A program made the position numbers and the translations under genes. From contig NZ_JAGHRB010000006.1 of NCBI RefSeq assembly GCF_017743995.1, positions 124,001-188,000 of the forward strand: a stretch of DNA of 64,000 nucleotides, written 5' to 3'. Of the stretch, positions 35,231 to 36,891 are shown one piece after another. The stretch is from Ruegeria sp. R13_0 (GTDB lineage Bacteria > Pseudomonadota > Alphaproteobacteria > Rhodobacterales > Rhodobacteraceae). A model generated the notes under the pieces. That model was not told the origin of the DNA. It saw nothing but the letters and a program-made list of their open reading frames with translations, and did not search any database. Position 1 is the first letter of the stretch. Every line of letters starts with the position of its first letter.

Positions 35231-35665
35231 ATGTCCGATCAACTCCCCTTGGTATCGCGATCCCTGCCCATCGCTTTGTTGCGCGCCCGAGAAAGGGTGA
35301 TGGGCCCTATTCGCAAATTACTGATTGATGCCGGGGTGACCGAGCAGCAATGGCGCGTGCTGCGCTTGCTGAAAGAAGAAGGTGCAAGTGAGCCGACGGA
35401 TATCTCGGAACGGGCCTGCCTGTTGTTGCCAAGCCTGACGCGCATCCTGCAAAAACTGGAAGACAAGGGCCTGATCAAGCGTCGCTGTCACCCAAAGGAT
35501 CGGCGTCGTCAGATCGTCGAGATCACCGCGAAGGGGGAACAGATCATTCAGGACAATCTGACGGGCATTGTTCAACAGGCCGATCGCATGCGCGCGCATC
35601 TTGGTCCCGAAAAGCACGAAACGCTTCTGGATATCCTCAACGAGCTGAAAAACTTCAAAGAGTAA
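35231..35665 (+). CDS. hpaR: MarR-family regulator HpaR-like
   Basis: A 144-residue winged-helix repressor. Residues 35-100 contain the MarR DNA-binding region (VTEQQWRVLRLLKEEG, LLLPSLTRILQKLEDKGLI, RRQIVEITAKG), closest in feel to HpaR, the repressor of homoprotocatechuate degradation. The only possible target seen nearby is the FAH-family hydrolase at 36196; the rest of an hpa cluster is absent. The ligand is therefore inferred. Confidence 0.82.
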   Translation: MSDQLPLVSRSLPIALLRARERVMGPIRKLLIDAGVTEQQWRVLRLLKEEGASEPTDISERACLLLPSLTRILQKLEDKGLIKRRCHPKDRRRQIVEITAKGEQIIQDNLTGIVQQADRMRAHLGPEKHETLLDILNELKNFKE

Positions 35666-36195
35666 CCCCAGAGTTAAAACCCCGCCGGAGAAGGTAGGGG
35701 GAATTCTCCGGCGGGGTGGCCAGACCCGGGTTGGATTCTGTGCCTGGCCCAAGGCCGTTGCGTGTCGTCTTACCCGACGGCCCGGCCCACGTGTCGGAAG
35801 GCGCGTCAGTCCTGAAATAGGGTCTAACACGGGCGAAACTCCCAGGGGGATGGGCGTATTCGCCTGCCGTCTCCGATACGTTCGCGTCCCAATGCCGACA
35901 TGTTGAGGCGTCCGCAAGAGGTATCTTCAGGTCACTTCAGTCGTATTGATCTTTCCGGCAGAACTTCTGTGCCGGGCAGGTGGTGGGGGTGCCATCAATT
36001 CTTTAATCTACTAGGCGAACTAGCGCGATTTTACCTGTTTCCAAGGGATTCATACGCCCAGATGCGCCGCCGCAGGAATTGGGCGGCTTTGCGCCTGATC
36101 TCGCCGCAAATGTCGGCGTGAACCGGCGCATCGCTACGTCTTGCCAGTTGCGTGCCAGACGATAAGCTGCGCGGCGCAACACTCAAGGGATCGCC
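35666..36195. other. 530-bp gene-free region; possible minus-strand structured RNA
   Basis: No convincing protein gene on either strand. The left end holds a strong minus-strand terminator. Upstream of it on the minus strand, AGACCC (35820-35825) can pair with GGGTCT (35722-35727), enclosing about 100 bases rich in short complementary blocks. I could not match it to RNase P RNA, tmRNA, SRP RNA or 6S RNA by eye. Confidence 0.35.
35676..35716 (-). terminator. Strong minus-strand terminator without an upstream coding gene
   Basis: CCCCGCCGGAGAA (35680-35692) and TTCTCCGGCGGGG (35704-35716) form a perfect 13-bp stem. The following minus-strand bases are TTTT (35679-35676). In the plus direction no T-run follows, so it does not look like the hpaR terminator. 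Confidence 0.75.
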
Positions 36196-36891
36196 ATGCC
36201 GCATCTGTTTTCTCTACCTGAACCCATCTCGATCCCCGTGGTCGGCGAACAGGCGACCTATCCCATCGGTCGGATTTTCTGCGTTGGGCGCAACTATGCG
36301 GCGCATGCCGCCGAAATGGGCCATGAGGTAGACCGCGAGGCACCGTTCTATTTCACCAAGTCGCCCGCAAACGCCATTCTGACCGGAGCGAGCGTGCCGT
36401 ACCCGCCGGGTACCGAGAATTACCACCACGAGATGGAGCTGGCCGTCGCCATCGGTCGCCCCGTGTTCCGCGCCACCCCTGCAGAGGCGTGGGAAGCGGT
36501 ATATGGCTATGGATGCGCGCTGGATATGACCCGCCGCGATCTGCAGATCCGCGAACGCAACAAGCAGCGCCCTTGGGATCTGGGTAAGGATGTGGAGAAC
36601 GGCGCTGTCTTTGCGCCTTTGACCCGAGCCGCCGAGTGGTCCCCAGAGGACAACAAGCGCATTCACCTGAACGTCAACGCCGAGGTTAGGCAGGACGCGA
36701 CATTGCAGGAGTTGATCTGGAAAATTGATGAGATCATCTGCCACCTGTCCGGTTTCTATCACCTGCGCCCCAGCGACGTGATCCTGACCGGCACCCCCGC
36801 CGGGGTAGGGCCGGTTGCTGCAGGGGATGAGATTGAAGGTGGGATTGAAGGGCTGGAGCGTATTCATCTGACCCTGACGGATCCAGAATAG
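36196..36891 (+). CDS. FAH-family hydrolase (fumarylpyruvate hydrolase-like)
   Basis: A 231-residue metal-dependent hydrolase of the fumarylacetoacetase family, short form, as in fumarylpyruvate hydrolases of gentisate breakdown. FCVGRNYAAHAAEMG opens the domain, NYHHEMELAVAIG carries metal-binding glutamates, and LTGTPAGVGPVAAGD closes it. Located after hpaR, which may regulate it. Stops three bases before the convergent YcaQ gene. The exact substrate is not determinable. Confidence 0.87.
   Translation: MPHLFSLPEPISIPVVGEQATYPIGRIFCVGRNYAAHAAEMGHEVDREAPFYFTKSPANAILTGASVPYPPGTENYHHEMELAVAIGRPVFRATPAEAWEAVYGYGCALDMTRRDLQIRERNKQRPWDLGKDVENGAVFAPLTRAAEWSPEDNKRIHLNVNAEVRQDATLQELIWKIDEIICHLSGFYHLRPSDVILTGTPAGVGPVAAGDEIEGGIEGLERIHLTLTDPE

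Follow-up and report, generated by a model that had tools for sequence, protein, structure and literature searches.

The window, as we call the whole 64,000-nucleotide stretch of Ruegeria sp. R13_0 that was analysed, contains a gap between hpaR and a gene for an FAH-family hydrolase, both on the plus strand, in which a structured RNA is predicted to be encoded on the minus strand. A 412-aa DUF3095 protein (PF11294; 33893–35131) is encoded before hpaR, an arrangement also seen in several relatives. The features of the locus are as follows.

35231–35665 (+), hpaR, MarR family, convergent neighbour (TIGR02337, 131.5 bits against a cut-off of 121.2)
35676–35679 (−), four-T run after H5, a possible intrinsic terminator in this species
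35677–36011 (−), putative RNA of ~335 nt with predicted ends (homologs, covariation, G-U strand bias, and fold z-score)
35679–35717 (−), H5, terminal hairpin with loop CCCCC at 35701–35697 (pairing in 98.2% of cells, with both partners changed at one pair and U-G in nine rows)
35718–35749 (−), H4, hairpin GGCCAGGC/GUCUGGCC, 35749–35742 with 35725–35718 (99.1% of cells paired, variation mainly through G-U)
35754–35786 (−), P3, hairpin, 35786–35782 with about 35758–35754 (98.6% of cells paired, two of five pairs changed on both sides)
35794–35876 (−), P1, closing helix, 35876–35871 with 35799–35794 (three of six pairs changed on both sides)
35802–35830 (−), H3, hairpin with the AU-rich loop UAUUUC (local fold and alignment; stem without a separate score)
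35832–35864 (−), H2, hairpin with an apical CCCCC loop at 35849–35845 (the local folds of almost every homolog leave the C-run unpaired, while the stems differ)
35880–36011 (−), variable 5' domain, whose length and sequence show little conservation between homologs, with a further CCCCC at 35989–35985
36018–36045 (−), promoter-like motif, CTTGGA (36045–36040), 16 nt, CTAGTT (36023–36018)
36196–36891 (+), FAH-family hydrolase (PF01557), divergent neighbour and candidate target

The original prediction placed an unknown minus-strand ncRNA after hpaR. It is borne out: homologs exist, base pairs covary, the G-U pairs are specific to one strand, and a promoter-like motif is conserved, and this sequence evidence strongly supports an unannotated, structured ncRNA gene on the minus strand between hpaR and the FAH gene. 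As had also been noted, no protein gene on the minus strand lies immediately upstream of the RNA, the FAH gene being encoded on the plus strand. In a search of the window against Rfam 15, gathering scores were reached by two tRNAs only; the best sub-threshold match in the RNA region scored 20.7 bits against a cut-off of 100, and nine homologous loci gave zero matches at E-values up to 1. Identity with a known RNA such as 6S RNA, raised at the outset as the competing explanation, was not seen at the locus, where no Rfam family reached its cut-off. For 6S RNA (RF00013) there was no match at the locus, and the sole candidate of the genome, at G000:C11:272851-273002 (L024), scored 31.4 bits against a cut-off of 46.4, so that 6S RNAs of this genus may be under-detected by the Rfam model. 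Alpha-tmRNA (RF01849) was also rejected, the genome copy (300.4 bits) being located elsewhere. Literature searches covering titles and abstract openings found none naming the RNA, and the Rfam and literature searches together form the whole basis on which it is regarded as novel.

The claim that the region lacks a coding signal held for the 3' domain, where no sense-strand start codon was common to at least 60% of 28 aligned homologs; on this result, which pertains to the 3' domain, a small protein, a small mRNA, or a dual-function RNA was rejected. On the antisense strand of the same domain, the 28 homologs have two common start columns with frames of unequal length. The program-listed ORFs overlapping the RNA specify 199 aa on the minus strand and 73 aa on the plus strand.

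In the homolog alignment, 75 G-U cells are legal on the minus strand only and 3 on the plus strand only, and the model scores in Ruegeria are 90–190 bits for the sense strand and no higher than 26.5 bits for the antisense strand, and on these grounds a plus-strand RNA was rejected. Both strands fold stably (z-scores of −3.55 for minus and −3.10 for plus) and folding energy alone therefore cannot pick the strand, whereas the G-U asymmetry and the model scores do.

In the predicted fold of the RNA, P1 encloses H2 and H3 in a closed domain, and three hairpins come after it. The covariation check proposed with the original prediction was made on alignment A1, consisting of 28 of the 34 Ruegeria loci known at that point (L006, L008, L014, L021, L022, and L023, a duplicate, are among the six omissions), and four helices covary. 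In these helices, 98.7% of 867 cells are paired, and six pairs are changed on both sides against a shuffled mean of 2.5, a number reached in 1 of 500 shuffles; as related sequences inflate such comparisons with shuffles, the G-U count weighs more. The covariation score exceeds those of all 500 shuffles, and pairing falls to 33.5–52.4% when the partners are slid by 1–3 columns as a control. One pair of P1 is A-U in 14 and G-C in 12 of the 28 sequences. The alignment for H4 and H5 contains 24 rows placed by model match coordinates. Locus L022 was omitted from an earlier alignment, having no anchor gene in range, and its context was added later. Two paired blocks had been pointed out originally: GGCCAG/CTGGCC corresponds to the conserved helix H4, whereas AGACCC/GGGTCT is unsupported as a helix, its blocks belonging to different hairpins of the conserved structure. 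Most sequences from other genera, inspected by eye, show the same plan with different stems, i.e. a closing helix, a C-loop hairpin, an AU-loop hairpin, H4, and H5; in L156 the first part of this plan is indistinct. The locus represents a real structured RNA family that lies outside existing annotation.

Upstream of the RNA, the pattern CTTGG-N17-CTA is present in 29 of 40 Ruegeria loci and in none of six loci from other genera, compared with 1.9% in shuffled upstream sequence. From the position (36045–36018) and spacing of the motif in the window, transcription is predicted to start near 36011. The alphaproteobacterial sigma70 consensus is CTTGAC-N17-CTATAT. For comparison, RpoH consensuses were taken from PMC4843759 and PMC3441632. 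The motif spacing fits the RpoH consensuses (those of PMC4843759) slightly better than the sigma70 consensus, which is not decisive, and a promoter of either the RpoH or the sigma70 type is possible; the RpoH passages in PMC10673084 and PMC8307010 were of no help with the promoter class.

At the other end, H5 (minus strand, 35717–35679) has a perfect stem of 13–14 bp and an 11-nt loop and is followed by TTTT, and it is absent from the list of an automated terminator scan with a loop limit of 8. The terminator that originally drew attention to the minus strand is thus present in the window, both as a perfect hairpin and as a T-run, but the T-run is not a family feature: a run of at least four T within 12 nt of H5 was found in 5 of 46 homologs, although the hairpin is conserved. 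The combination of a terminal hairpin and a U-tract, a criterion for Hfq-dependent sRNAs, is consequently not a general property of the homologs. Such a U-tract terminator is for the most part a peculiarity of this species, and the 3' end of the RNA is less sure than the 5' end. The near-identical hairpin AAATATCCCCGCCGGAGGC...GCCTCCGGCGGGGATATTT, or a close form of it, occurs in L045, L048, L050, L052, L053, and L055 (at ~1501–1546), following apparent gene ends in several genera of Rhodobacteraceae. This hairpin appears to be a stock bidirectional terminator used throughout the family; H5 has the stem in common with it, and not the flanks.

By blastn, the region was present in 34 of 54 Ruegeria genomes; with R1, a covariance model of 28 sequences, the RNA was identified in 40 of the 54. 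An exact pattern scan of named genomes matched 21 contigs, all titled Ruegeria. When R1 was applied to the family sample, matches were obtained in 20 of 394 genomes, of which 7 were accepted. The 13 rejected matches covered the terminal hairpin alone (the common post-gene hairpin) or scored 18.8–22.3 bits over the whole model, and FAH, marR, and the two remaining neighbours are missing from the vicinity in all of these genomes. Genome G304 also lacks these neighbours but was accepted on account of a score of 90.8 bits and of its sister G470, which has FAH. A shorter model, R2, built with the seven accepted sequences included, returned exactly the same 7 of 394 genomes, belonging to six genera. 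Further searches added G470 and then G531 and G651 from the order sample, in which 24 of 390 genomes and 3 of 139 genera gave matches; the large searches scored 6 or 12 candidates per genome under strict filters, so absences are weak evidence. A second, weak match in G017 (29.2 bits) was discarded; it falls within a long reading frame. In total, the RNA was identified in 48 genomes, i.e. 40 of Ruegeria and 8 from five other genera.

The neighbourhood is conserved. In 41 of the 48 genomes the RNA and hpaR are convergently oriented, and in 45 the RNA is divergent from FAH, either directly adjoining or located behind a gentisate dioxygenase gene (the exceptions are G005, G070, and G304). Outside Ruegeria, FAH or gentisate dioxygenase is kept in seven of eight genomes and hpaR in three. 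Among the 14 Ruegeria genomes with no R1 match, 11 have an FAH match (one of them distant, with 45% identity); 10 of these 11 have no hpaR nearby; G076 has hpaR and FAH separated by a short gap. In L188, L153, L154, L190, and L191, the RNA is separated from FAH by a gene resembling gentisate 1,2-dioxygenase, which the window and most Ruegeria lack at this position. The gene was named by TIGR02272 with scores (274 and 288 bits) that fall short of the curated cut-off of 442 bits, and its position beside FAH suggests that the FAH protein may be a fumarylpyruvate hydrolase.

The conserved element of the family is hairpins with C-rich loops. Predicted folds of all 46 homologs expose C4–C6 runs in hairpin loops, the property by which sX13-like RNAs (runs of C4–C5) are recognized, and 23 of the 46 have at least two loop runs of C4 or longer, with a mean of 1.5 against 0.14 in dinucleotide shuffles. 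In the H2 loop the C-run is kept while the stems vary. In the H5 loop, C4 or longer is found in 27 of 46 homologs and the C-run is lost in 19; four of the five other-genus rows of alignment A3 have the H5 loop ACCCCC(C)UCCU, which includes the complement of the Shine-Dalgarno sequence.

Leaders of FAH with a run of at least four G were found in 19 of 34 RNA-bearing Ruegeria (15 lack one), in none of four other-genus loci, and in 1 of 10 RNA-less Ruegeria, as compared with 0 of 38 marR leaders and 3 of 49 window ORFs, the start sites of which are approximate; shared descent inflates these counts. It also inflates the counts of predicted loop-leader duplexes at or below −9 kcal/mol, which were obtained for the first divergent gene in 27 of 43 cases, for marR in 4 of 38, and for 27% of shuffled leaders. 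The loops and leaders showed no coevolution, own pairs being no better than cross-species pairs (mean rank 0.53, with 43 of 44 pairs usable; L015, L029, L152, and L169 were dropped beforehand, and L192, the other locus of G470, was not entered). The pair formed by the window's own FAH leader and loop is weak (−7.1 kcal/mol). In G030, the gentisate dioxygenase leader contains GGAGGGGG, which by eye is complementary over 8 nt to CCCCCUCC of the RNA of the same genome.

The reading that we favour, with a probability of roughly 55%, is that of a stand-alone regulatory sRNA with C-rich loops. The ~335-nt RNA would be made from its own promoter and expose stretches of 4–6 C in its hairpin loops, through which it would base-pair with G-rich ribosome-binding sites and act in trans to block the translation of several mRNAs. 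One target may be the divergent FAH or gentisate dioxygenase–FAH mRNA, the leader of which is often G-rich. Alternatively, the RNA could be dedicated to that divergent mRNA, acting on it alone or through an interplay of the divergent promoters, with no wider set of targets. The retention of FAH or gentisate dioxygenase–FAH in 45 of 48 genomes, which outside Ruegeria is more frequent than that of hpaR, and the excess of stable duplexes over marR leaders would suit such a local regulator, as would the RNA-less Ruegeria, most of which have FAH and no hpaR nearby. We nevertheless regard it as rather unlikely: own loop-leader pairs have no advantage, many FAH leaders lack G-runs while the C-loops persist, G304, G005, and G070 keep the RNA without the usual FAH neighbour, and the neighbourhood may be simple inheritance.

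Less probable still is a scaffold or sponge, in which the C-loops or the AU-loop of H3 would bind an RNA-binding protein and not mRNAs. A long, multi-domain, covarying structure with a repeated loop motif would be in keeping with this role, and so would the rarity of the U-tract usual for Hfq-dependent sRNAs (5 of 46 homologs), but no candidate protein is known and the loops are more simply explained by the complementarity of C-runs to ribosome-binding sites. It is very improbable that there is no RNA gene at all and that the signal reflects an inverted repeat acting at the DNA level or a plus-strand terminator of hpaR. The resemblance of the H5 stem to the hairpin behind many Rhodobacteraceae genes and the stable folding of the plus strand point that way; the covariation in four helices, the G-U asymmetry of 75 to 3, the promoter-like motif upstream, and the homologs at sites without hpaR all argue against it.

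An extended form of the favoured C-loop reading is tentative and, in our view, somewhat doubtful. It envisages an undescribed, unusually large C-loop RNA family coupled to gentisate/FAH aromatic-catabolism genes across several related genera. A single covarying scaffold with no conserved U-tract end would bear several anti-ribosome-binding-site loops, and the RNA would act on the adjacent genes as well as on other G-rich leaders. Through this family, the breakdown of aromatic compounds may be subject to an additional, RNA-based level of control. In Ruegeria and related bacteria, which are common in the sea, targets are known for few of the small RNAs, and the clear structure, fixed place, and obvious pairing motif make the family directly testable. 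In Ruegeria pomeroyi DSS-3, 99 putative sRNAs have been reported, including several intergenic trans-sRNAs of 264–488 nt, and the present RNA could therefore be among them; the terms 'HpaR' and 'gentisate' are absent from the main text of that report, as far as it was available (PMC4809877).

Several alphaproteobacterial sRNAs, e.g. AbcR, CcsR, and GsrN, have anti-Shine-Dalgarno loops. The RNA described here resembles them in that it probably pairs through a C-rich or CCUCC motif in a loop, but differs in architecture and neighbourhood, and no Rfam family matched the RNA region or the nine homologous loci. Another parallel is sX13 of Xanthomonas, which, according to PMC3771888, represses mRNAs with G-rich motifs via its C-rich loops. 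Both RNAs are structured and intergenic and have CCCC/CCCCC hairpin loops, and the action on G-rich motifs near translation starts is proposed here by analogy. In contrast, sX13 is 115 nt long with three stems (PMC3771888), whereas the present RNA is ~335 nt long and has a closed multi-hairpin domain; the host of sX13 belongs to another class, and no sequence relation between the two is apparent. The best reading is that the RNA belongs to the C-rich-loop sRNAs by mechanism and not by sequence family, which, if true, would provide a further case of C-rich-loop regulation beyond the groups in which it was first described.
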